From Anaerolineae bacterium (GTDB lineage: Bacteria; Chloroflexota; Anaerolineae; J102), in assembly GCA_026991225.1 (NCBI GenBank), contig JALXCB010000195.1:1-32543 (forward strand): a stretch of DNA of 32,543 nt. The letters run 5' to 3'. The translations under genes and the position numbers were made by a program. Shown one piece after another: positions 4,612 through 30,985 of the stretch. Each line of letters opens with the position of its first letter. Positions within the stretch are counted from its first letter, which is position 1. Under the pieces are notes generated by a model. The model was not told the origin of the DNA, made no database searches, and saw only the letters and a program-made list of their open reading frames with translations.

Positions 4612-6339
4612 ATGAAATTCGTTTCCCGGCACATCCTTTTCATTTGGGTTCTGCTCCTGGTCGGATCGGCCACGCTATGGGGTGTGAGCCATGTCCTGGC
4701 CCAAGGCCCGATTGGCACATCCTTCACCTATCAGGGCCAGTTGAAGGATGGCGGCCTGCTTGCCAATGGCCCGTACGATTTCCAATTCTCTCTCTACGAC
4801 GCGGCCTCGGGCGGATCTCAGGTGGGGAGCACGCTGACGCGCGACGACGTGGGCGTCACCGATGGCCTGTTCACCGTGGAGCTGGACTTCGGCGACGTGT
4901 TCGATGGCAATGAACGCTGGCTGGAAATCGCAGTGCGGCCCGGAGACAGCACGGGCGCGTACACCACCCTTGCACCCCGGCAGCAATTGACGGCCGCGCC
5001 CTACGCACTGCACGCCCGCCGTTTCTGGAAGCTGGGCGGCAACAGCAATGTGGGCGCGGGCGACTATCTGGGCACCAGCGCCAACCAGAGCCTGGAATTT
5101 CGGGTGAACAACCAACGGGCGCTGTTGCTCATCCCCAACGCCACCAGCCCCAACATCATCGGCGGCTACAGCGGCAACAGCGTCACGGACGGCGTGTATG
5201 GGGCGGTAATCAGCGGCGGCGGCGAGGAGGACAACGCCAACCAAGTGTATGATAATTATGGAATCATCAGCGGCGGAGGCGGAAACCGTGCCGGCAGTGA
5301 TGACAATGACGTGACTACCGCAAGATATGCCGCGGTGGGCGGAGGGCGTCATAACACCGCCAGCGATAGCTATGCCATCGTAGGAGGCGGACATTACAAC
5401 ACCGCCAGCGGCCTTTCGGCCATCGTGGGCGGAGGGGGTCACAACACCGCTAGCGGCGGCTACGCCACCGTGGGCGGAGGGCATTACAATACCGTCAGCG
5501 GCCTCGAGGCCACCGTGAGCGGGGGTTATTCTAACTCTGCTAGCACCTACTGGGCCACCGTGGGCGGGGGCGAACACAATAGGGCCACAGGCGAGGACGC
5601 CACCGTGGGCGGAGGGAACAGCAATACCGCCAGCGGCCGTTCGGCCACCGTGAGCGGCGGGGGTTACAACGAGGTCAGCGGCAACTATGCCTTTGTGGGA
5701 GGCGGTTATAACAACATCGTCAGCGGCGACTACGCTACAGTACCCGGGGGTTCGGAAAACGTCGCTCAGGGGGACTACAGCTTCGCAGCCGGGCGCAGGG
5801 CCCGGGCCTACAACGCCGGTTGCTTCGTCCTCACCGATTCTGTGGATGCGTATGAGGACTGCGTCAACGACAACCGCTTCGTTTTCCGGGTCACCAATGC
5901 TTTCTACATTTGGACCAAGGCGGATCACAGCGCGGGCGTGCTCCTGCCCACGGGCGGCAGCGCCTGGTCATCTCTCAGTGACCGCAACGTCAAGGAGAAC
6001 TTCCAGCCGGTGGATGGAGAGGACTTGCTGGCCCGATTGGCCCGCGTCCCCATCCTCACCTGGAACTACAAGGCCCAGGACCCCAGCATTCGCCACATGG
6101 GGCCCATGGCCCAGGATTTCTACGCCGCATTCGGTCTGGGCGAGGATGACAGGCACATCAGCACCATCGATGCGGACGGCGTGGCCTTAGCCGCGATCCA
6201 GGCCCTCTACCAGCAAAATCGGCAACTTCGGGCCGAGAACGATGAGCTGAAAGCGCGGGTGAATGATCTCGAAGCCCGGCTGGCCGCGCTGGAAGCCGCC
6301 ATCACCGCCATGCAAGAGAACGCGGAAGGAGGCGACTGA
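4612..6339 (+). CDS. Secreted repeat protein with YadA-like head and C-terminal S74 chaperone domain
   Basis: A 575-residue exported protein. The signal peptide (1-31) ends HVLAQ. The N-terminal domain at 35-140 is shared with the decayed copy upstream. A tandem repeat region follows at about 238-395, period 16, consensus YATVGGGHYNTASGLS, resembling YadA/Hep_Hag trimeric adhesin heads. The C-terminus (453-575) has SDRNVKENFQPVDGEDLLARL, then HMGPMAQDFYAAFGLG and a heptad coiled coil from about 530. That is the S74 intramolecular chaperone found on phage tail spikes and surface fibres, which trimerises and can self-cleave at the Ser-Asp with help of the Lys. Those residues are S456, D457 and K461. 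It was probably a trimeric cell-surface fibre. It overlaps the next gene by one base (TGATG). An AAAGGAGC ribosome-binding site precedes the ATG. It could be phage-derived, but no phage genes are nearby. Confidence 0.88.
   Translation: MKFVSRHILFIWVLLLVGSATLWGVSHVLAQGPIGTSFTYQGQLKDGGLLANGPYDFQFSLYDAASGGSQVGSTLTRDDVGVTDGLFTVELDFGDVFDGNERWLEIAVRPGDSTGAYTTLAPRQQLTAAPYALHARRFWKLGGNSNVGAGDYLGTSANQSLEFRVNNQRALLLIPNATSPNIIGGYSGNSVTDGVYGAVISGGGEEDNANQVYDNYGIISGGGGNRAGSDDNDVTTARYAAVGGGRHNTASDSYAIVGGGHYNTASGLSAIVGGGGHNTASGGYATVGGGHYNTVSGLEATVSGGYSNSASTYWATVGGGEHNRATGEDATVGGGNSNTASGRSATVSGGGYNEVSGNYAFVGGGYNNIVSGDYATVPGGSENVAQGDYSFAAGRRARAYNAGCFVLTDSVDAYEDCVNDNRFVFRVTNAFYIWTKADHSAGVLLPTGGSAWSSLSDRNVKENFQPVDGEDLLARLARVPILTWNYKAQDPSIRHMGPMAQDFYAAFGLGEDDRHISTIDADGVALAAIQALYQQNRQLRAENDELKARVNDLEARLAALEAAITAMQENAEGGD
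5329..5780 (+). repeat. In-gene 48-bp tandem repeats encoding VGGG-x-N-TASG units
   Basis: Nine or ten imperfect units of about 48 bases, each containing a version of GTGGGCGGAGGG and AACACCGCCAGCGGC. The units encode the head repeats of the S74 protein. Similarity among units is high enough for copy-number change by recombination. It is coding in one frame throughout, so it is not a CRISPR array. Confidence 0.8.
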
Positions 6340-16963: not shown

Positions 16964-17966
<1,003 letters not shown>

Positions 17967-17974
<8 letters not shown>

Positions 17975-18992
17975 GCAGACCCCCGCCCCCACCAACGGAC
18001 ATGGAAAAAAGGAGGACATCCTTCTTGAGGTCAAAGACCTCAAGATGTATTTCCCCATCACCAAGGGCATTATCATCCAGCGCAAGATCGCGGATGTGAA
18101 AGCGGTGGATGGCGTCAGCTTCAGCATCAAACGGGGTGAGACATTGGGCCTGGTGGGTGAGTCCGGCTGCGGCAAATCCACCACAGGGCGCGCCATCCTG
18201 CAACTTTATCGCCCCACGGCAGGCAGTGTGCAGTTTGAAGGTAAGGAGCTGACCACGCTGAAAGGGGAAGCGTTGCGACGTCAACGCCGCGAGATGCAGA
18301 TGATCTTCCAGGACCCATACGCCTCCTTGAATCCACGTCTTACGGTGGGCAACATCATTGGCGAGCCGTTGGAAGTGCATAATCTGGCCAAGGGCAAGGA
18401 AAAGCGCGAGCGGGTGCAGGAGCTCCTCAAGCTGGTGGGGCTCAACCCCTACTTCATCAACCGCTATCCCCACGAATTTTCGGGGGGGCAGCGGCAGCGC
18501 ATCGGCATCGCCCGGGCCCTGGCTGTGAATCCCAAGTTCATCGTGGCGGATGAGCCTATTTCCGCGCTGGACGTCTCCATTCAGGCGCAGATCGTGAACC
18601 TGCTGGAGGACTTGCAGGCCGATCTGGGATTGACCTACCTGTTCATCGCCCACGATCTTTCCATGGTTCGCCACATTTCCGATCGCGTCGCCGTGATGTA
18701 TCTGGGGAAGATCGTCGAATTGACCGATCACGAGACCTTGTACGAGAATCCGCTGCATCCTTATACCAAGGCTCTGCTTTCCGCTGTGCCCATTCCCGAT
18801 CCTTATATCGAGGAAAAGCGGCAACGCATTGTGTTGGAAGGCGATGTGCCTTCGCCTACGAATCCGCCATCGGGTTGCAATTTCCGCACCCGCTGTCCGC
18901 AGGTCATGGACATTTGTGCGGAGCAAGACCCTGAATGGAAGAACGTGGGTGCCCCTGAGAAGGAGCATTGGGTCGCCTGTCATCTTTACTGA
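17967..18992 (+). CDS. oppF: Peptide ABC transporter ATPase OppF/DppF
   Basis: A 341-residue partner ATPase of OppD. Walker A GESGCGKS at 64-71, [14 protein letters not shown], signature FSGGQRQR at 171-178, Walker B FIVADEP and FIAHDLSMV are all intact. C304, C310, C317 and C338 repeat the Cys pattern of OppD. The N-terminus carries a short Pro/Gly/Lys-rich lead of about 17 residues before the ABC fold. The open frame extends upstream to 17829, but the ATG at 17967 overlaps the oppD stop (ATGCCTGA) and has AAAGGAGG upstream, which fits translational coupling. It forms the ATPase heterodimer with OppD beneath the OppB/OppC permease. Confidence 0.96.
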
Positions 18993-19171
18993 GCGTCCAG
19001 AGGCCCCTCGTAAGTTCGTTATCAGCAGCCCGTCAAAACAATCTCACGTTCCCTGCATCGCTCTCGTTTCCAGGGCTGTTGTCATAAATTCCAATCGTCG
19101 GTCAAACGACTTTTCACATCCGATTGTCTGAAAAAGGAGGTAGGAAAAGCCACAGCAACTCTTTCCGCGTG

Positions 19172-19200
19172 AAAACGACAGCCTGGCACGCTGGCGTTTT
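19172..19200 (+). terminator. Stem-loop between oppF and the binding-protein gene
   Basis: AAAACG-A-CAGC (19172-19182) pairs with GCTG-G-CGTTTT (19190-19200), with one internal mismatch and a 7-base loop. It ends in TTTT, so it may partly terminate or act as a processing site, letting the binding-protein gene be expressed separately. The 278-base gap holds no gene. An isolated AAGGAGG at 19134-19140 is not followed by a start codon. Confidence 0.45.
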
Positions 19201-19270
19201 ACACACATCGTTGTCGTGCGCAAATCCGCGCGTTCCCAAATTCTTCCACTCATAGGAGGAGAAAAGAAGC

Positions 19271-21148
19271 ATGTCTCGTAACAAGTGGATTGTCTTGATT
19301 CTGGTGCTCGCTCTTGGCATAGTTGCACTGAGCGCTTGCGGCGGCCAGAGCACCCCTCAGGTCGTCGAGAAGGTCGTGGAAAAGACCGTCGTCGTCACCC
19401 AGGTGGTGGAGAAGGAAGTCGAGAAGACTGTGGTGGTGACCGAGGTCGTTGAGAAAGAGGTCGTCGTCACGCCGACGCCTGCTCCGGCCACCGAGGTCGT
19501 CCTGAACCTGAACCTGGGCACCGAGCCCCCCACCCTGGATCCCTCGCTGGCTACCGACACGACCTCCATCGACGTGTTGGGCAACATCATGGCCGGCCTG
19601 ACCTGGATCGACGCCGAGACCAACGAGCCCGTGCCCTACCTGGCCGAATCCTGGGATGTGAACGATGATGTCACCGAATTCACCTTCCATCTGCGCCAGG
19701 ACAATAACTGGGTGCGGTACAACACCGGCACCGGCGAAATTGAGGTGATGCGCCCCGTCACCGCTGAGGATGTGGCTTACGGCGTCCGCCGTACTCTGGA
19801 TCCCCGCACGGCTTCCGACTACGCCTATGTGCTCTACATTATCAAGGGCGGCGAGGAACTGAACACCGCAGACCTGGACGCGCTGAGCGACGAGGAAGTG
19901 CAGGCCCTGTTCGACAACCTGGGTGTGGAAGTCATCGACGATTATACCATCAAGTTCACCCTGGCGGATCCCGCTCCTTACTTCCCCTCCATTGCCAGCA
20001 TGTGGGTGGCGTTCCCCATGCCCAAAGAGGTCATCGAGGATAAGGGCGAGCGCTGGATCGAGCCTGGCATCATCTGGACCAACGGCCCCATGGTGCTGAC
20101 CAAGTGGGCGCATGACGACAGCCTGCAACTGCGCAAGAACCCCAACTGGTGGGGCGCTGATGATGTGCAGATCGATGTCATTGATTACGTGATGGTCACC
20201 GAAGCCTCCACCGCCTTCGCCATGTACGAAGCTGGCGACCTGGATGTGGCTGGCGTGCCTCTGGACGAGATCGATCGCGTGAAGGCCGATCCCGAACTGA
20301 GCAAGCAGCTCACCATCGCCCCCGCTCCTTGCACCTACTACTACGGCTTCATCAACACCAAGGCCCCCGTGGATGACGCCAACGTGCGCCGCGCCCTCTC
20401 TGCGGCCATCGACCGCAAGGGCCTGGTGGAGAATGTGACCAAGGGCGGTCAGATTCCGGCCAACACCTTTGCCCCCGCCATGATCTTCGGTAGCGCAGCC
20501 GGCGATCCCGACATCGCTCCCTGGGCCCTGCCCGAGGAGATGGGCGGAACCGGCTATGACAAAGCGCTCGAGATGGCTAAGGGCTGGCTGAAAGACGCCG
20601 GTTACAACGACGGCTCCGAGCTGGGCACCATCACCCTGATGCACAACACCTCCGAGGGCCACGCCCGCATCGCCCAGGCCATCGCGGCCATGTGGAAGGA
20701 CGCCCTCAATGTAGATGTGGCTGTCGAGAATCAGGAGTGGAAAGTGTACCTGAACACCATCAAGAAGGACACCCCCATCGAAGAGGTGCCCCACGTCTTC
20801 CGCCTGGGCTGGTGCGCGGACTACCCCGATCAGAACAACTGGCTGAACGAGGTGTTCAATCCTGAAATCGGCGCCAACCGCCTGCGCTGGGACAACAAAG
20901 AGTTCGCCGAACTGATGCGCAAGGCCCGCGCTTCCACGGATCCCGAAGCGCGCAAGGCCATGTATAAGCGCGGCGAGCAGATTCTGGTGGACGAGGAAGC
21001 CGCCATGGCTCCCATCTACTACTACACCACCGTCACCATGACCAAGCCCTGGGTCACCTACCGCACCCTCGGCACGGTGGGCCCCGCCGGTCATTACACC
21101 TGGAAGATCGATTGGGAAGCCAAGAAAGCGGCCCTCGGTCTGAAATAA
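19271..21148 (+). CDS. Peptide-binding lipoprotein (SBP family 5, OppA/DppA-like)
   Basis: A 625-residue extracytoplasmic solute-binding protein. The lipoprotein signal has lipobox LSAC with C23. Residues 31-68 are a repetitive VVEK/VVVT linker, then TPTPAPA, a form characteristic of Chloroflexota binding proteins and probably a flexible stalk. The SBP_bac_5 domain runs from about 76 to the end: LNLGTEPPTLDPSLATD, FTFHLRQDNNWV, AEDVAYGVRRTLDPRTASDYAY, LRKNPNWWG, YYYGFINTKAPVDDANVRRALSAAIDRKGLV. It delivers peptides to OppBC. AGGAGGAG lies about ten bases before the ATG. Stem-loops on both sides suggest higher expression than its operon partners, as is usual for binding proteins. The ligand class is inferred from the family and neighbours. 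Confidence 0.95.
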   Translation: MSRNKWIVLILVLALGIVALSACGGQSTPQVVEKVVEKTVVVTQVVEKEVEKTVVVTEVVEKEVVVTPTPAPATEVVLNLNLGTEPPTLDPSLATDTTSIDVLGNIMAGLTWIDAETNEPVPYLAESWDVNDDVTEFTFHLRQDNNWVRYNTGTGEIEVMRPVTAEDVAYGVRRTLDPRTASDYAYVLYIIKGGEELNTADLDALSDEEVQALFDNLGVEVIDDYTIKFTLADPAPYFPSIASMWVAFPMPKEVIEDKGERWIEPGIIWTNGPMVLTKWAHDDSLQLRKNPNWWGADDVQIDVIDYVMVTEASTAFAMYEAGDLDVAGVPLDEIDRVKADPELSKQLTIAPAPCTYYYGFINTKAPVDDANVRRALSAAIDRKGLVENVTKGGQIPANTFAPAMIFGSAAGDPDIAPWALPEEMGGTGYDKALEMAKGWLKDAGYNDGSELGTITLMHNTSEGHARIAQAIAAMWKDALNVDVAVENQEWKVYLNTIKKDTPIEEVPHVFRLGWCADYPDQNNWLNEVFNPEIGANRLRWDNKEFAELMRKARASTDPEARKAMYKRGEQILVDEEAAMAPIYYYTTVTMTKPWVTYRTLGTVGPAGHYTWKIDWEAKKAALGLK

Positions 21149-21168
21149 CCCCCTTCACCCGCATTTCA

Positions 21169-21200
21169 GGCTGGCGGCTTCATTGTAGAGGCCGCCAGCC
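21169..21200 (+). terminator. Strong hairpin after the binding-protein gene
   Basis: GGCTGGCGGC (21169-21178) and GCCGCCAGCC (21191-21200) form a perfect 10-bp stem. The downstream bases are TTCCTCTC, not a clean T-run, so partial termination or 3'-end stabilisation of the binding-protein mRNA is more likely than full termination. Confidence 0.6.
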
Positions 21201-21220
21201 TTCCTCTCAGCACGCCCCTG

Positions 21221-21297
21221 GGATATTAGGCAGTGGATATTGGATATTGCTTGCTGTTGTAATGTCCGATGCCCATTGACTAATATCCAATCTCAAC
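21221..21297 (+). repeat. GGATATT-type palindromic intergenic repeat
   Basis: GGATATTAGG, GTGGATATTGGATATTG and the reverse TAATATCCAATC. ATTGGATATT (21239-21248) is exactly complementary to AATATCCAAT (21282-21291). It lies between the binding-protein hairpin and oppB. Confidence 0.6.
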
Positions 21298-21316
21298 TTT
21301 CCGAGGATACGGGACT

Positions 21317-22387
21317 ATGTTACAGTTTGTTATTCGGCGTATCATCTGGACCATTCCTGTGCTGTTCCTGGTTACATTCTTTACATTCGCGCTGGTGCGG
21401 GCTATTCCCGGCGGCCCCTTTGATTTTGCCGGTGACAAAAGTCTGCCTCCTACCGTGGTGAAGAATCTGGAGGCGAAATATCATCTCAATGATCCGCTGT
21501 GGCAGCAGTTTTGTTCCTATCTCATCGGCGACACGGTGTGTCGACCGGGACAGGAACAGAACGGGGTGCCCAGCAAGGGCATTCTGCTGGGCGATCTGGG
21601 ACCCTCCTTCCGCTATCGCGGCCGCACGGTGAACGACATCATCGCCACCGCGCTTCCCATCTCCGCCCAATTGGGTTTCATGGCCGTGATGCTGGGAATG
21701 CTGATCGGCATTCCCGCGGGGATCATCGCCGCGCTCAAACACAACACCCCCATCGACTATACCGCGACATTCGTCGCCGTATTGGGCGTGTCCATCTCAA
21801 ACGTCGTGTTGGGCCCCTTCCTGATCTGGATATTTGCGCTCAAACTCGGCTGGTTCCCGGTGGCCACGTGGGCGGCGGAGCCCTTATTCTCCAACATCGC
21901 GGAGAAATACATTGCCGCGGGCGAACCGATTCCCATGTGGGTCAACCTCATTCCCAAACCCACGGTGGATTTCTTCATGCATGCGGTGTTGCCCGTGGTC
22001 ACCCTGGGCACGGCCCTTTCCGCCAGCCTTGCTCGTCTCACCCGTGGCAGCCTGTTGCAGGTTATTCGCGAGGATTACATCCGCACGGCCCGGGCCAAAG
22101 GGCTGCGTGAACGGGCCGTCATCATCACCCACGCCCTGAAGAACAGCATGATCCCCGTGGTCACCATCCTGGGGCCCATGTTCGCTGGCGTACTCACAGG
22201 CACCTTCGTGGTGGAGCAGATCTTCGCCATTCCCGGCTTGGGACGCCACTTTGTGACCAGCGTCGGCAACCGGGACTATCCCGTCGTTCTGGGCACCACC
22301 CTGGTTTATGCCGTCGCCATCGTCATCGCCAACATGTTTGTGGATATCACTTACGCCTGGCTCGATCCCCGTGTGCGTCTAGAGTAG
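21317..22387 (+). CDS. oppB: Peptide ABC transporter permease OppB/DppB
   Basis: A 356-residue inner-membrane permease. The N-terminal BPD_transp_1_N motif MLQFVIRRIIWTIPVLFLVTFFTFALVRAIPGGPFD is complete. Five further helices include the EAA loop YIRTARAKGLRERAVIITHALKN, which contacts OppD/F, and it ends WLDPRVRLE. It is some 30-40 residues longer than typical OppB (about 310-330). The additions lie in the periplasmic loop after helix 1, with a Cys pair in FCSYLIGDTVC, and in the later loop around WAAEPLFSNIAEKYIAAGEPIP. The Cys pair could form a disulfide. GAGG lies 11 bases before the ATG. It is separated from the binding-protein gene by a hairpin and a repeat, and 59 bases precede oppC. 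Confidence 0.95.
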   Translation: MLQFVIRRIIWTIPVLFLVTFFTFALVRAIPGGPFDFAGDKSLPPTVVKNLEAKYHLNDPLWQQFCSYLIGDTVCRPGQEQNGVPSKGILLGDLGPSFRYRGRTVNDIIATALPISAQLGFMAVMLGMLIGIPAGIIAALKHNTPIDYTATFVAVLGVSISNVVLGPFLIWIFALKLGWFPVATWAAEPLFSNIAEKYIAAGEPIPMWVNLIPKPTVDFFMHAVLPVVTLGTALSASLARLTRGSLLQVIREDYIRTARAKGLRERAVIITHALKNSMIPVVTILGPMFAGVLTGTFVVEQIFAIPGLGRHFVTSVGNRDYPVVLGTTLVYAVAIVIANMFVDITYAWLDPRVRLE

Positions 22388-22446
22388 TTGCAATCCGTAA
22401 GCCTTGCAATTAAATTCGATTTCATTCATTTTTGGAGAAACGTTCT

Positions 22447-23649
22447 ATGACCACTGCCACCGACACATCGCCCAAGGACCTTGATCTTGCTGCACAGCGA
22501 TCCCGGTCGCCGTTGCGCGATGCGATGAGCCAGTTTTTCAAGAACAAGGTCGCTGTTGGGGCGTTGATTTTTATCATCATCGAAATCATCATTGCCATCC
22601 CGCCCGTGACCGACGCCATCGCACCTTTTCCCTATGATAAAACCAGCCTCTACGATAATCTGGCGCCTCCCGGCGCTCCCTACACGGGACGCGACCCCGA
22701 ATTTCAGGGAAAGACTTTCTTGCTTGGCGCAGATTATTTGGGCCGCGACCTGTTGAGCCGAACCCTCTATGGCGCCCAGGTCTCCCTGGCGGTGGGATTC
22801 GTTGGCGCCACGGTGAGCCTGTTGGTGGGCACCCTCATCGGGCTGATCTCTGGATACAGCCGCCCGGCCATCGATAACATCATCATGCGCTTGGTGGACT
22901 TTCTTTATGCACTGCCCATCCTCGTGTTCATCATCCTAATGCAGGTCTACTTCAAGGCGGTGGCCAGAACGGAGAGTTCCGCCGGATTGGAGCCATTCAC
23001 CCTCCCGAGCTGGTTCGGGTGGGTGGTCCTAGGATTTTTTGTGGTGGCGGTCGTCGCAGGCGTCTATATGGCCCGGCGTGAGGACGGCGGCGGGATTCAC
23101 TACCTTTTCGTCTTTCTGGCCGGGGCCCTGGTGCTCTCCTTCGTCTTATTCATCGCGCTGGTCATGAGCACCGGCCGCAGCTTCATGGCCAGCCTGGTGG
23201 AGATCGACAACGCGTTCGGCGGCATGTTCTTCCTCTTCATCGCCCTGGGCCTTTTGAACTGGATCGGCATGGCCCGTATCACGCGCGGGCAGGTGCTCAG
23301 CGTGAAGAACAAAGAATATGTGGAAGCGGCCCGGGCCATCGGAGCCAACGACCGCCGCATCATCTTCCAGCACCTCCTGCCCAACGTCCTCGGCCCGGCC
23401 ATCATCTACGAAACCCTGGCCATTCCCGGCTACATTTTCACCGAGGCTTTCCTCAGCTTCATCGGCCTGGGCATCAATCCCCCTCGCCCCAGTTGGGGGA
23501 ACATGATCTCCGAAAACTATCAGGGCCTGCGCGCGGCCCCCTGGACCGTGCTCGTGCCCAGTCTGGCCCTGACCCTCACCGTGCTGGCCTTCAACTTCCT
23601 GGGCGATGGCCTGCGCGACGCCTTCGACCCGCGCCTGCGCGGCGAATAA
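22447..23649 (+). CDS. oppC: Peptide ABC transporter permease OppC/DppC, enlarged
   Basis: A 400-residue permease, against about 300 for typical OppC. The usual features are present: N-terminal helix (34-54), TFLLGADYLGRDLLSR (the LGTDxxGRDxxSR motif), the EAA loop EYVEAARAIGANDRRIIFQHLLPN (290-313) and the end FNFLGDGLRDAFDPRLR. Between LYALPILVFIILMQVYFK and FGGMFFLFIALGLLNWIGMARI there is an extra segment of about 85 residues (170-255), with two added hydrophobic helices near 191-209 and 217-240. ATG 22447 follows GGAG. A TTG start at 22432 would consume that ribosome-binding site and is rejected. A terminator-like hairpin follows 49 bases after the stop. Confidence 0.94.
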   Translation: MTTATDTSPKDLDLAAQRSRSPLRDAMSQFFKNKVAVGALIFIIIEIIIAIPPVTDAIAPFPYDKTSLYDNLAPPGAPYTGRDPEFQGKTFLLGADYLGRDLLSRTLYGAQVSLAVGFVGATVSLLVGTLIGLISGYSRPAIDNIIMRLVDFLYALPILVFIILMQVYFKAVARTESSAGLEPFTLPSWFGWVVLGFFVVAVVAGVYMARREDGGGIHYLFVFLAGALVLSFVLFIALVMSTGRSFMASLVEIDNAFGGMFFLFIALGLLNWIGMARITRGQVLSVKNKEYVEAARAIGANDRRIIFQHLLPNVLGPAIIYETLAIPGYIFTEAFLSFIGLGINPPRPSWGNMISENYQGLRAAPWTVLVPSLALTLTVLAFNFLGDGLRDAFDPRLRGE

Positions 23650-25253: not shown

Positions 25254-27044
25254 CTAGTAGAATGCCGGGGAGTAGATGATGGCCGTGAGTGCGAGGTCCA
25301 CCAGGGCGAAGAGAAAAAAGCTGGTAATGGGGCCGGGATTGTCGGCCCGGCGAATGTAGAGGACCATGATCCCGAAGGCGATGAGGAAGATGCTCAGGGG
25401 GATGAGGAGCAGCAGGACCATGGACCAGGCCGCGGGCAGGGTGCGGATCAGGGTGGGGCTGGCGAGGGTGGGGGCGAAGGCCACGATTTTGACGACGTAG
25501 TAGAGGAGCATGGCCGCGAGGAGCTGGATGCGGCCTGTACGCGTGGTCAGCTTACGATCCCGCCCCAAGAGGGCCAGCAGGCCCAACAGCACCAGAGGCA
25601 GGAGGAAGATGAACAACAGCATGGGGATGAGCGCGCTCGCAGCCAGCAGACCGAATCCCACCTCCCCGGCGATATCATCCATCATGTCGCTGCGGGTAAG
25701 CTGCAATGCGCCCTGCATCCAGGCGCGGGACGTGGTGGACAGCAGCACCAGGTATTTCCCCGCGCCCCGATAATCGAGCCAGGCCGCGTACAGATTCCCC
25801 GCGTCATCGCTCGCCCCCACCGGCTTGCTGGAGATGAAGCGGCTGCGGGCGATGGGGGCATAGCCCGCCTGCCCGCCATCCGCCAGCGCCACCATCACCG
25901 GCTGCAATTCGCTCTTCATGCGATAGGTGAGTTTGGCCGTCATCAGCAGGATGGCGCGGTCGCCCGGCGGGGAGTTTTGCAGGGCGCCGGGATAGAGCAC
26001 GTAGCCGCTGAGTCGGCCCGCGGGAGCGGCGAAGGGAATGAAATCGCCCTCTTGGGGCCAGGCTTCCCGGCCCGGGATCCCTTCGGGGATGGCGATATCG
26101 AATTCCCGAGTCTGGTCGGGGCGTCCCGCGGGGAAGGAGATGACGGTGACGGAAGCGGTGCCCGCGCTCAACCCCGAAAGGCGCTCCAGGTGCCAGAACG
26201 CGTAGAGATGCCCGTCGTCGCCCGTCAGCGCGGGGGAGGAGAAGCGCAGGCCGGGGTTGCGGCCATGCCGTTTGATCTGAACGCCCTCCACCGGGCCTGC
26301 GGGGGCGTCGCCCAAAGGCGCGTAGAGGATGATCCGATCCCCTTCCAGCTCCCGGTCGAGATGCCAGAGCAAGTGCAATGCGCCCGCGGCGTCTCGGAAC
26401 AGCGAAGGCCCCTGCCCTCGTTCCACCAGCAGGATGGGATCGCCACCCGCGGGTTCGGCATCCAGCCCGGTCAGGCGGCGGTGGAAGATCATGCGGGCGT
26501 CATCTTCGGGCCGCCGGGCTTCCCACACCAGGTCGAGCGCGCCGTCGGGACGGAGGAGGGCGTCGTAGCTGACAACGCGGGCGTCATCGGGCGTGATGCG
26601 TTGGGCCGGGGCCAGCAGGTCGCCCTGGGGCGAGAGGCGCAGGTAGAAGACGCCGGGGATGCCCTCTTTGTGGGGCTTGGCCAGGGTGAGAAGCCCCCGC
26701 TCGCCATTGGCCAGGGTAAAGAGCCGATAGCGCCGGGGGAGGAACAGGCCCGTTCCCAAATCCACGTCCGAAACCACGCCCCGATCCCGCTGGATGCGGG
26801 CGGCGTGGAGATCGATGCGCCCGGCCTGTTTGCTGCCCCAAACCAGTTGCACTCCCTCGCCCCTCTCGTCCACCTGCATGGCCGGGGCCTCGTGCAACTG
26901 GCTGACGCCCACCAGCAGCCCCCGTCCCCACCGCGTGTCCAGGGGCAGGGTGCGGGTGGGCGTGGCGCGGCAGCCGGTCAGAAGCAGCAGAAAAAGGGCG
27001 AGGGCCGGCAGGACGCGCCAGCGGGGAGGGTGGATTTCGGGCAT
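25254..27044 (-). CDS. Lipoprotein with large surface domain and C-terminal membrane domain, unrecognised
   Basis: A 596-residue protein of no family I recognise. The signal has lipobox LTGC with C25. Residues about 45-455 look like a beta-propeller of sialidase/BNR-like build: repeated blade-like phrases such as DGALDLVWEARRPEDDARMIFHRRL, AGALHLLWHLDREL, DGHLYAFWHLERL and AGNLYAAWLDYRGAG. The last 130 residues hold four hydrophobic helices (about 468-492, 505-525, 535-560 and 570-590). Lipid anchor plus polytopic tail on one chain is an odd topology: both ends are membrane-held with the propeller outside. It is transcribed away from the permease-peptidase fusion, from a shared gap. It might serve that protein or be unrelated. 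Both strands in this region have long open frames, but only this one has a coherent signal and helices. Confidence 0.75.
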   Translation of the reverse strand: MPEIHPPRWRVLPALALFLLLLTGCRATPTRTLPLDTRWGRGLLVGVSQLHEAPAMQVDERGEGVQLVWGSKQAGRIDLHAARIQRDRGVVSDVDLGTGLFLPRRYRLFTLANGERGLLTLAKPHKEGIPGVFYLRLSPQGDLLAPAQRITPDDARVVSYDALLRPDGALDLVWEARRPEDDARMIFHRRLTGLDAEPAGGDPILLVERGQGPSLFRDAAGALHLLWHLDRELEGDRIILYAPLGDAPAGPVEGVQIKRHGRNPGLRFSSPALTGDDGHLYAFWHLERLSGLSAGTASVTVISFPAGRPDQTREFDIAIPEGIPGREAWPQEGDFIPFAAPAGRLSGYVLYPGALQNSPPGDRAILLMTAKLTYRMKSELQPVMVALADGGQAGYAPIARSRFISSKPVGASDDAGNLYAAWLDYRGAGKYLVLLSTTSRAWMQGALQLTRSDMMDDIAGEVGFGLLAASALIPMLLFIFLLPLVLLGLLALLGRDRKLTTRTGRIQLLAAMLLYYVVKIVAFAPTLASPTLIRTLPAAWSMVLLLLIPLSIFLIAFGIMVLYIRRADNPGPITSFFLFALVDLALTAIIYSPAFY

Positions 27045-27171: not shown

Positions 27172-27250
27172 ACCACTAAGACACAAAGGCACAAAGGGGA
27201 ATTTTTACATTTTTTCTTCGTGTTCTTAGTGCCTTAGTGCCCTTTGTGGT
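27172..27250 (+). repeat. ACTAAG / CACAAAGG palindromic intergenic repeat
   Basis: ACCACTAAGACACAAAGGCACAAAGG on the left and CTTAGTGCCTTAGTGCCCTTTGTGGT on the right are near reverse complements around a T-rich centre. It folds into a long imperfect hairpin in the divergent gap between the two large genes. Confidence 0.75.
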
Positions 27251-27310: not shown

Positions 27311-30300
27311 ATGACGACCCCTTCGAACTCCCTGACCGCGCCCCTCAAGCCCGCGCCGGAAGAGGGCGGCGCCGATTTTTCCCTCATGGACAGCGTCCGT
27401 TCGGGCGCGGAGATGATCCTGCTGTTTGGCGGGCGGCTGGCCATGGCCCTGATCACCCTGTTCGTGATCGCGTATGTGGCCTTTGTGGGACTGCGCATGG
27501 CGCAGGGGATCGATTTCGCGCCGGCGCTGGCGTTGGGGCTGGGCGATCTGGGAGAATGGTTGCGGGCGTTGCTGCATGGCGACCTGGGCTTGAGTTCGTC
27601 CGCCTCCCGAGGGCTGCGCCCCGTGCCGGTGAGCAGCGTCCTGCCTGCCATCCTCATCCGCAGTTTCGGGCTGATGGCGGCGGCGCTGCTTTTGACCTTG
27701 TTGATTGGCGTTCCCCTGGGGGCCGTCTCCGCCAAACAGCGGAATTCCCGGCTCTCCCTGGTGACGTTCGTCCTCTCTCTGCTGGGCGCGTCGCTGCCCA
27801 CCTTCTTCATCGCCATGCTCTTGCAGATGGCCGTGCTGGGATACATGCGCCGGACGGGGCAGCCCGCGCCGCTGCCCGTGGGCGGCTTCGGCTGGGACGC
27901 GCATATCGTGCTGCCGGCCCTGGTGCTGGCGGCCCGGCCCATCGCGCAGGTGGCCCGGGTGACCCATCTCTCCCTGGTGGAGCAGCTCGACGCGGATTTC
28001 GTGCGCACGGCCCGGGCCAAGGGGCTGCGGGAATGGCGCATCTGGACGGGGCATATCGCCCGCAATGCAGCCATCCCCATCCTGACGACGCTGGCCACCA
28101 CCCTGCGCTTCACCCTCTCCTCCCTGGCCATCGTCGAATTGTTCTTCGGATGGCCGGGCGTCGGCTTCAACCTGTTGCGGGCCATTGGCTCGGGGGATAC
28201 GAATCTGACAGTGGCGCTGCTCCTCAGCCTGGGCGTGCTGTTCATCATCATCAACTGGCTGGTGGAGTGGGCTTATGGACGGCTGGACCCGCGGGTCAAG
28301 CGGGCGCTGAGCGCGCATCGCCGCGAGGGGAGCGCGTGGCGCGAGAGTCTGGCCGCGCTGTTCTACACCCTGCGCGACGCCGTTCTCAACCTGCCGGGCC
28401 TCTCCCGCTTCCGTTCGCAGGAGCCCGCGTGGGACAACGCGTTCCGGACGGCCATCCAAAAGCAGATCGCCATGAACCCGCAGGTCATCGACGTGGGAGA
28501 GGATGAGCGCAAGCGGGAGCGGCGTCGGGCCTGGATGCGGGGCACGGTGGGGAATGTCCCCCTGATGATGGGGGGGATCATCGTGCTGGGGCTGCTGTTC
28601 ATCATCATCGCCGGGCCGCGCCTCTGGCCCCACAATCCTTACAACACCACGGGTCTGGTCATCGAAGGGGGCGAGTTCAAGGTGCCGCCCTTCCCGCCCG
28701 ACGCGGAATATCCCTGGGGCACGGACGCGTTGGGCCGAGATATGATGAGCCTGATCCTGGCCGGGGCGTCGCTGACGGTGGGGATCGCGCTGGCGGTGAT
28801 GGTCATGCGCATCCTCATTGGGTTCGTCCTGGGCGCGATAGCGGGCTGGTCGGAGGGAGGAAAGGTGGATCGGCTGATCATGGGCGCGGCCGAGGTGCTT
28901 TCCGCCTTTCCTGTGCTGATCCTGGCCATGATGATCATCCTGGCCCTGGGAATTCGCAACGGGCCCTGGGTGTTCGTGGTGGCGCTGGGGCTGGTGGGAT
29001 GGACGGAGACCATGCAGTTCGTGCGCTCCAAGGTGATCAGCATCCGTCCCACCGCGTATATCGAGAGCGCCATCGCCACGGGGCTGCGCACGCCCGAATT
29101 GATCATGCGCCATGTGCTGCCCAATCTGGCGACGGCCATCATCGCCCTGGCTGCGCTGGAGATCGCGGCGGCGCTCATGCTGTTGGGCGAGCTGGGCTTC
29201 ATCGGCATTTTCATCGGCGGCGGCGCGTTTGCAGAGCTGGATATCGGCGCGGCCGCGTATCACTATTCCGACGTGCCCGAATGGGGGGCGCTGCTGGCGA
29301 ACATTCGCACCTATGCCCGGGCTTATCCCTGGATGGCCATCTACCCCGCGTCCGCGTTCGCCATCACGATTTTGGGCTTCAATCTGCTGGGCGAGGGCCT
29401 GGGGCGGCTGATCCACGAGATCGGCGCGGCCTTCGGGCGCATTTTCAACCGCCGCACGGTGCTGGCCCTCATCGCTCTCTTCCTGTTCGTGAACTGGGTG
29501 GGGGGGCGCTCCAACGCGGCCGCGCTCTACGCCGACCAGTCGCAGGGCTATGACGGCATGGCCGCGTATGAGCACACGGCGGCGCTGGCCGGGCCCGACA
29601 CGCAGGGGCGCCGGTTCGATATGCCCGATGGCGAGGCCGCGGCGGAGTATATCGCCCAACAGTTCCGGGCGTTTGGATTGCAGCCCGCGGGCCAGGAAGG
29701 GACCTATTTCCAGACCCGCCGCCGCGATTTCGCAGTGCTGGCCAATATCCCCGAACTGCGTTTCTCCGGCCCCGACCTGTCGCTGACCGATTTGACCTAT
29801 GGCAGGGATTTCGCGGCCTTCTACAGCCCCGATCTGAACCAGGGGCAGGCGCAGGCTCCCATCCGATATGCGGGATTCAGCAAGCTGGAGGCCACGAGCT
29901 CATCCAGCTTCGGCCCCGCCCGCTATCGGGCGCTGAAGGAGGAGGATTTCAGCCAGGATATCGTGCTGGTGACGTCGGTGGAGCACGCCCGCTATCTGCG
30001 GTATGAGAAGAAGAAGGGCCTGCTGGTGGTGGCTCCGCCCGACCTGGATCTGGCCCGCTACACCCTGTTCTCGGCCCGAGACCCGCAGGTCTCCAAGTTC
30101 GGCACGGGCCGCAAGGTGGGGTCGGTGACGCCTACGCTGTGGATCAGCGAGGAGGTGGCCAATCGATTGCTGGCCGCCAAGGGCGTCACCGTGGCGGATC
30201 TGCGCCGCTATGAAGCGAAGATGGAGCCGGAGAGCGTGGCCTCCTTCGATCTGGGCGTGGACGCGGCCATGAATCTGGAGATGGAAATCCACGAGGGCGT

Positions 30301-30985
30301 GCCCGCGCGGCATGTCATCGGCCATCTGCCGGGCCTGGATACGACGCTGAACGACCAGATGATCCTGGTGCTGGCTCAATACGACGGTCTGGGCGCGGGG
30401 CCGGATGGAACCATCTATCCGGGAGCCAATGACAACGCCTCCTCCATCGGCGTCATGCTGGAGATGCTGCGGGTGTGGCAGGAGGCGGGGTATCAGCCCA
30501 ACCGCACGTTCCTGTTCGTGGCTTATGTGGGCGAGGGGTATGAGACGGGCCACAGCCCTGACGAAGCCTTCGATCCCAAGACGTTCCTCAAGGCGAAGGC
30601 GGGGTTCCTCAACGCTTTCGACCTGGACGCCATCGTGTTCCTGCGGGGTCTGGGGACGGGCGAGGCCGAGGTGATGACGTACGATTCCGGGGGCAATTTG
30701 CGTCTGGCCAATGTGTTCGACGACGCCGCGGGCCGGGCGGGGTTGAAGGCCCGGGCCGCGCGGGACGCGGTGGACCTGAACGTGCTTTACCGGACGCGGC
30801 AGCGCACGTTCTTCGACTCGGGCGGTCAGGTCGCGCCCACCATCCGCATCAGCTTCAAGGGCTGGGATGCGCACAGCGGCCTGCCCTCCGACACGCTGGA
30901 GACCCTGCATCCCGATTGGATGACGAAGATGGGCAAGGCCCTTTCCACCGCGCTCATGGTCATGGGCCAGGAGGAGCGGTATTGA
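27311..30985 (+). CDS. OppB-OppC permease fused to an M28-like peptidase domain
   Basis: One 1224-residue chain. Residues 36-330 are an OppB-type permease with EAA loop ADFVRTARAKGLREW (228-242), ending YGRLDPRVK. A cytoplasmic linker (331-410) is rich in Arg and Glu. Residues 411-700 are an OppC-type permease with YPWGTDALGRDMMS (467-480), EAA loop AYIESAIATGLRTPELIMRHVLPN (582-605) and FNLLGEGLGRLI. A helix (715-731) leads to residues 740-1224, an extracytoplasmic M28-like aminopeptidase domain: a PA-like insert, then LVLAQYDGLG (1019-1028), YPGANDNASS (1037-1045), FVAYVGEGYETG (1069-1080) and WDAHSGLPSDT (1185-1195). The first zinc-ligand His of AHxD is Q1023, and the EE pair is GE at 1074-1075, while D1025, D1041 and H1188 are kept. 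ATG 27311 follows GAGAGGA. No ATPase or binding protein adjoins it. No stop or frameshift interrupts the fusion. Confidence 0.9.
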   Translation: MTTPSNSLTAPLKPAPEEGGADFSLMDSVRSGAEMILLFGGRLAMALITLFVIAYVAFVGLRMAQGIDFAPALALGLGDLGEWLRALLHGDLGLSSSASRGLRPVPVSSVLPAILIRSFGLMAAALLLTLLIGVPLGAVSAKQRNSRLSLVTFVLSLLGASLPTFFIAMLLQMAVLGYMRRTGQPAPLPVGGFGWDAHIVLPALVLAARPIAQVARVTHLSLVEQLDADFVRTARAKGLREWRIWTGHIARNAAIPILTTLATTLRFTLSSLAIVELFFGWPGVGFNLLRAIGSGDTNLTVALLLSLGVLFIIINWLVEWAYGRLDPRVKRALSAHRREGSAWRESLAALFYTLRDAVLNLPGLSRFRSQEPAWDNAFRTAIQKQIAMNPQVIDVGEDERKRERRRAWMRGTVGNVPLMMGGIIVLGLLFIIIAGPRLWPHNPYNTTGLVIEGGEFKVPPFPPDAEYPWGTDALGRDMMSLILAGASLTVGIALAVMVMRILIGFVLGAIAGWSEGGKVDRLIMGAAEVLSAFPVLILAMMIILALGIRNGPWVFVVALGLVGWTETMQFVRSKVISIRPTAYIESAIATGLRTPELIMRHVLPNLATAIIALAALEIAAALMLLGELGFIGIFIGGGAFAELDIGAAAYHYSDVPEWGALLANIRTYARAYPWMAIYPASAFAITILGFNLLGEGLGRLIHEIGAAFGRIFNRRTVLALIALFLFVNWVGGRSNAAALYADQSQGYDGMAAYEHTAALAGPDTQGRRFDMPDGEAAAEYIAQQFRAFGLQPAGQEGTYFQTRRRDFAVLANIPELRFSGPDLSLTDLTYGRDFAAFYSPDLNQGQAQAPIRYAGFSKLEATSSSSFGPARYRALKEEDFSQDIVLVTSVEHARYLRYEKKKGLLVVAPPDLDLARYTLFSARDPQVSKFGTGRKVGSVTPTLWISEEVANRLLAAKGVTVADLRRYEAKMEPESVASFDLGVDAAMNLEMEIHEGVPARHVIGHLPGLDTTLNDQMILVLAQYDGLGAGPDGTIYPGANDNASSIGVMLEMLRVWQEAGYQPNRTFLFVAYVGEGYETGHSPDEAFDPKTFLKAKAGFLNAFDLDAIVFLRGLGTGEAEVMTYDSGGNLRLANVFDDAAGRAGLKARAARDAVDLNVLYRTRQRTFFDSGGQVAPTIRISFKGWDAHSGLPSDTLETLHPDWMTKMGKALSTALMVMGQEERY

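Follow-up and report, generated by a model that had tools for sequence, protein, structure and literature searches.

A fused OppB-OppC permease with a degenerate M28 peptidase-like domain in the class Anaerolineae

We analysed a stretch of 32,543 nucleotides from an Anaerolineae bacterium (contig JALXCB010000195.1 of GenBank assembly GCA_026991225.1), hereafter called the window, in which positions 27311 to 30985 of the forward strand encode a protein of 1224 amino acids that joins the two permease halves of a peptide importer to a C-terminal domain of the M28 peptidase fold. Judged by its sequence, this protein belongs with the Opp/Dpp permeases and not with the active M28 peptidases: a single frame holds two permease halves with intact EAA loops and a 13th hydrophobic segment, the fusion is conserved, and the M28 domain has lost its metal site and stays under purifying selection. 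We tentatively propose that it works as a single-chain Opp/Dpp-type permease, served by ATPases acting in trans, in which the tethered pseudo-aminopeptidase is a receptor or a gate for peptides; the fused domain would probably capture peptides instead of cutting them. Its parts belong to known families, and the combination is apparently undescribed, since we found no description of an OppB-OppC-M28 fusion in the open-access literature.

The fused protein and its relatives

The protein and its parts are laid out as follows.

27311-30985, + strand: single-chain OppB-OppC-pseudo-M28 protein of 1224 residues, with an ATG start and no internal stop
27419-28315, + strand: OppB-type permease half, residues 37-335 (matches to Pfam BPD_transp_1, NCBIfam OppB-type models and PDB DppB/OppB profiles)
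27995-28066, + strand: EAA loop of OppB, for ATPase coupling, residues 229-252 (D229, A234, K237, G238 and N252 invariant in 33 homologues)
28316-28510, + strand: cytoplasmic linker between OppB and OppC, residues 336-400, variable and poorly conserved
28511-29440, + strand: OppC-type permease half, residues 401-710 (Pfam, NCBIfam and PDB profile matches)
29063-29125, + strand: EAA loop of OppC, residues 585-605 (E585, A587, G591 and P604 invariant in the 33 homologues)
29210-29275, + strand: family-specific insertion in the extracytoplasmic loop between transmembrane helices 5 and 6 of OppC, residues 634-655 (FIGGG...SD, then PEWG)
29456-29527, + strand: 13th transmembrane helix, residues 716-739, predicted from hydropathy to exit to the outside
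29528-30982, + strand: ectodomain made of a PA/apical-like part and an M28 fold, residues 740-1224 (Pfam, PDB profile matches and a fold search with a low-confidence model)
30266-30982, + strand: M28 core with an eroded metal site (Q1023, D1041, E1075, G1076, R1112, G1190)
30419-30448, + strand: PGANDNASSI loop of the former active site, the most conserved stretch of the ectodomain

In Pfam, the protein matches BPD_transp_1 twice (E 1e-48) and, over residues 1002-1211, Peptidase_M28 (E 1.5e-10, 41.6 bits against a cut-off of 21.3), and NCBIfam models of OppB and OppC type cover residues 80-335 and 400-702, respectively, every score lying below the equivalog cut-off. When a profile of the 33 homologues was searched against the PDB, the permease parts matched solved DppB/OppB and DppC/OppC chains across both halves and the C-terminal part matched YwaD, the Aeromonas aminopeptidase (AAP), nicalin and transferrin receptor 1. 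An EAA loop is present in each half, with its Gly and Ala positions invariant, and the motif WGTDALGRD is located in the OppC half. Hydropathy gives 13 transmembrane segments, six and six followed by the one at 716-739. The C-terminus of ordinary OppC lies inside and the 13th helix crosses the membrane, which places the M28-like domain outside. A model of the ectodomain, used for the fold class only (mean predicted local distance difference test score, pLDDT, of 51.8), retrieved transferrin receptor and PA-domain aminopeptidases at the top of a fold search and gamma-secretase chains lower down.

A sequence-only reading of this DNA had described a single OppB-OppC-M28 chain with an EAA loop in each half, a GTDxxGRD motif in OppC and an extracytoplasmic C-terminal domain. 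The open frame of 1224 codons, the domain matches and the conserved relatives indicate that the chain is genuine; both loops and the motif are confirmed, and the 13th hydrophobic segment supports the external position of the last domain. Homologues align along the entire protein at about 35-86% identity and omega is well below 1 in each domain where it could be computed, so that the frame is not a chance one. The same reading had considered that an assembly error might have joined separate genes, or that relatives might always encode three separate proteins. An assembly or frameshift artefact is ruled out because the fusion recurs in many independent assemblies, for example in G255, a single contig of 5.35 Mb, and in G051, which has 10 contigs. 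As to separate proteins, the relatives have either a single chain or just one break, which sets OppB apart from OppC-M28.

The fusion is widespread in the class, where matches (E < 1e-80) were found in 71 of the 396 genomes sampled and in 54 of 222 genera. A single-sequence search of 400 genomes of the phylum gave five with a match, two of them outside the class, and matches on plasmids were free M28 peptidases only. From 60 neighbourhoods, the same domain order was recovered in 44 full-length single-chain homologues (38 OppB-OppC-M28 proteins and six with an extra N-terminal ATPase-like domain), together with 19 cases of a split form in which OppC and M28 are fused and OppB is separate, its gene being adjacent in 18 of the 19. 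In four single-chain members the N-terminus carries a short TPR-like region or is extended by about as much, and one genome (G334) encodes two single-chain proteins in tandem (L102:688-4368 and L102:4600-8259).

In a tree of the OppC domains, all fused OppCs fall into one clade, with support 100, and ordinary OppCs lie outside it. Apart from one long-branched row, the split forms group together (support 95). The main single-chain group is a clade of its own (support 96), and the ATPase-bearing form clusters with a further single-chain group (support 96). The simplest reading is a single OppC-M28 fusion event, after which OppB would have been joined (or separated) and the ATPase domain gained last. 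The displayed fused OppCs of all types share an insertion of about 15-25 residues in the outer loop between transmembrane helices 5 and 6 (LGELGF-IGxFIGGG ... DxPEWG), which is absent from the seven ordinary OppCs compared and of which F634, G636-638, D654, P656, E657 and W658 are invariant in the 33 homologues. This insertion is on the same side of the membrane as the ectodomain and, among the permeases compared, occurs only in those having an ectodomain.

The M28 domain and its possible role

To describe the catalytic site, we built an alignment of 63 fused M28 domains and the large secreted M28 protein whose gene neighbours the split form, and the five metal ligands (His, Asp, Glu, Asp/Glu, His) and the catalytic Glu of the Aeromonas-type site were scored. 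The six positions are complete in none of the 63 fused domains, which keep at most four, in most cases between one and four, the residues lost varying from clade to clade. In the window, H97, E152, D179 and H256 of AAP are replaced by Q1023, G1076, R1112 and G1190, the alignment being least certain at D179 and H256, and the only residues retained are D1041, equivalent to D117, one of the five ligands, and E1075, equivalent to the catalytic Glu E151. The N-terminal M28 domain of the secreted neighbour keeps the two His, the Asp, the Glu-Glu pair and the further Asp in 13 of 13 cases, four of which were shortened by trimming in the joint alignment and are scored as gaps in it.

These results bear on the two mechanisms suggested by the sequence-only reading, peptide trimming and peptide binding by a former peptidase. 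An active membrane-bound aminopeptidase trimming peptides at the channel mouth is nearly excluded: the M28 fold is recognisable and the window retains the catalytic base E1075 and the ligand D1041, but the other four ligands are replaced, no sampled fusion has the full set and the losses differ between clades. Because the metal site is gone in the window and in every other sampled fusion, trimming is unsupported and we rejected an active peptidase; of the two mechanisms, we infer that binding is the better reading.

Omega, computed against two close relatives of 85% and 78% identity, is 0.06-0.12 for the permease halves and 0.12-0.13 for the M28 core, which indicates that the dead domain is maintained by purifying selection. 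Within the core, conservation is higher in the loops of the former active site, led by PGANDNAS, than elsewhere (0.66 versus 0.50, a value reached by 385 of 20,000 random sets of segments), a pattern that fits a binding cleft.

In the mechanism that we propose, two Opp-type ATPases encoded elsewhere (OppD/OppF) would dock on the EAA loops and drive transport. The former active-site cleft would capture peptides, presumably via their free N-terminus, and the ectodomain would pass them to the mouth of the channel, thereby replacing or assisting a free binding protein, while the conserved insertion of the OppC outer loop may be one of the places where the ectodomain touches the channel. That the system is an importer without any free binding protein, with a covalent dead aminopeptidase evolved from a peptidase as its peptide receptor, we consider less likely than not. 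In favour of the proposed mechanism, genes of OppA type are found within 5 kb in none of the 15 split loci and in three of the 21 single-chain loci that have usable flanks, the remaining 18 having none.

Several observations weigh against the proposed tethered receptor with ATPases in trans. No ATPase gene is consistently linked to the fusion, since only two of the same 21 single-chain loci, and none of the 15 split loci, have any ATP-binding cassette (ABC) ATPase within 5 kb. Several free OppA proteins are encoded in the window's genome and could serve the fused permease. The structure models are poor (mean pLDDT of 36.9 for the full-length protein over six sequences, and the 51.8 already given for the ectodomain) and lend no support to a position of the latter above the channel. 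Finally, the test of cleft-loop conservation gives a p of about 0.02 for loops picked by eye, and this conservation may just reflect constraints of the fold.

Comparison with known systems

The fusion resembles the OppBCDF and DppBCDF importers in having both permease halves, their EAA loops, the GTDxxGRD motif of OppC and profile matches to the DppBC and OppBC structures. It differs from them by its single chain, its 13th helix, the M28-type ectodomain, the insertion in the outer loop of OppC, the absence of a linked ATPase or binding protein and its scores below all NCBIfam equivalog cut-offs. Its ectodomain has, according to Pfam, PDB profiles and the fold search, the same fold as M28 aminopeptidases with a PA/apical domain (BSAP/YwaD, the Aneurinibacillus aminopeptidase and GCPII), but its metal site is eroded in all sampled members and it is tethered to a permease, not secreted.

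Membrane-tethered M28 folds without the full catalytic machinery, or without any, are also found in transferrin receptor 1, nicalin and nicastrin. The nicastrin ectodomain is aminopeptidase-like, and a conserved Glu in it was proposed to lie in a substrate-binding pocket for gamma-secretase (PMC2647162). These proteins are eukaryotic and act as separate chains in complexes, whereas the domain described here is a covalent part of a bacterial ABC permease. The likeness concerns a working principle and is a resemblance in kind; we do not claim a shared dead ancestor. Importers with tethered binding domains are known from OpuA and GlnPQ (PMC11065425, PMC8025302). As in the fusion, an extracytoplasmic substrate domain is covalently joined to the permease in these two systems, but their domains are ordinary binding-protein folds, while the fusion carries a peptidase fold on an Opp-type permease whose two different halves are themselves fused.

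If the dead peptidase is indeed the receptor, a different fold would have taken over the receptor role, giving an arrangement like that of nicastrin on a bacterial transporter; the receptors of such ABC importers are usually regarded as binding-protein folds. Since single-chain, split and ATPase-bearing forms exist in nature, one can test in which order the parts were fused and whether each partner is needed. Labels such as "M28 peptidase" on these large permeases are misleading in annotation.

Gene neighbourhood and candidate partners

The sequence-only reading had placed the end of an Opp operon at 23649 and noted that neither an ATPase nor a dedicated binding protein adjoins the fusion; both statements hold for the window.

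16964-23649, + strand: ordinary Opp operon oppD-oppF-oppA-oppB-oppC (OppD at 16964, OppF at 17829, OppA at 19271, OppB at 21317, OppC at 22432), a possible, unproven source of ATPases

This operon stands beside the fusion only in the window's genus (nearest relative L048) and partly in genome G021 (L049). Every genome sampled from the class encodes OppD/F-type ATPases, whether it bears the fusion or not (38 of 38 and 120 of 120), so their presence says nothing about a partnership and we dropped it as evidence; the fusion may share them. In the window's genome, three OppA-OppB-OppC loci (L140, L141 and L142, on contigs C179, C188 and C140) have no neighbouring OppD/OppF genes either. This suggests that ATPases are shared, and ATPases acting in trans would then not be peculiar to the fusion.

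The neighbours that do recur are of another kind. A large secreted protein with M28 and Peptidase_MA domains adjoins 12 of the 15 split loci, and a TolB-like propeller eight of them. The secreted proteins beside the split genes (L060:12760-17676, L061:1652-6529, L063:1982-6778 and ten others) have 1600-2057 residues. Besides an intact M28 domain they contain a further M28 domain, which is degenerate, and a Peptidase_MA-like region that appears to have a motif of the HExxH type. Such an intact M28 and Peptidase_MA neighbour makes for a peptide-degrading setting and supports a peptide ligand. In the window, the gene next to the fusion (X596, 25254-27044, - strand) encodes a putative, propeller-like membrane lipoprotein with repeats and C-terminal transmembrane helices and without a Pfam match; it adjoins the fusion in six species (the window, L048, L047, L049, L096 and L077).

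The ectodomain could be a docking platform instead of a receptor, one that keeps partners close to the channel (a secreted peptidase, a propeller lipoprotein or a free OppA) and leaves the binding of peptides to them. Besides the recurrence of such genes at the split loci and of X596 at single-chain loci, the frequent use of pseudo-enzymes as scaffolds speaks for this possibility. We nevertheless think it improbable, if worth keeping in mind, as neighbours of this type occur in only three of the 21 single-chain loci and conservation in the ectodomain peaks in the former cleft and not on any evident outer surface.

The six single-chain members with an extra domain (L056, L028, L029, L093, L094 and L095) start with a LolD/MacB-like ATPase domain; one permease here bears a pseudo-peptidase as well as a pseudo-ATPase. 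All six have lost the LSGGQ signature and the switch His, and three of them have also lost Walker A. In L056, the fusion gene lies downstream of a MacB_PCD/FtsX gene and then an HlyD gene, and genes of the same sizes lie beside it in L093, L094 and L095. This domain might have revealed which ATPase serves the permease, but we rejected that idea: being LolD/MacB-like, degenerate and adjacent to MacB and HlyD in L056, it looks like the ATPase of a neighbouring operon fused into the permease, and we take it for a captured neighbour and not for the motor.

Gain of this degenerate domain, together with the lack of a linked ATPase gene at nearly all loci, might mean that the permease no longer transports and that its pseudo-domains mark a conversion to a sensor or an anchor. 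We judge this conversion unlikely. The ATPase-coupling residues of the EAA loops are invariant, also in three homologues that have the extra N-terminal domain, OppB and OppC are strongly constrained (the omega of 0.06-0.12 reported above), and the three OppABC loci of the same genome similarly lack linked ATPases. An efflux or export device, to which the order MacB_PCD/FtsX, HlyD and fusion in L056 and the genes of matching size in its three relatives could point, is highly improbable, given that this arrangement is confined to one clade, neither the window nor the other clades showed recognisable genes of this kind, and the permease halves belong to an importer family. With these alternatives weighed, a single-chain permease with a tethered peptide receptor or gate is still the reading that we tentatively prefer.

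Two further features of the window were noted. Between X596 and the fusion gene (27174-27239) lies a copy of a dispersed repeat, CACTAAGGCACTAAGAACACGAAG, which with its relatives occupies 27 places in the genome, the reversed control giving none. A gene at 4612-6339 (+ strand) encodes a protein that has an endosialidase-chaperone (Peptidase_S74) domain and a beta-roll-like match, which is unusual for such a chromosomal setting.

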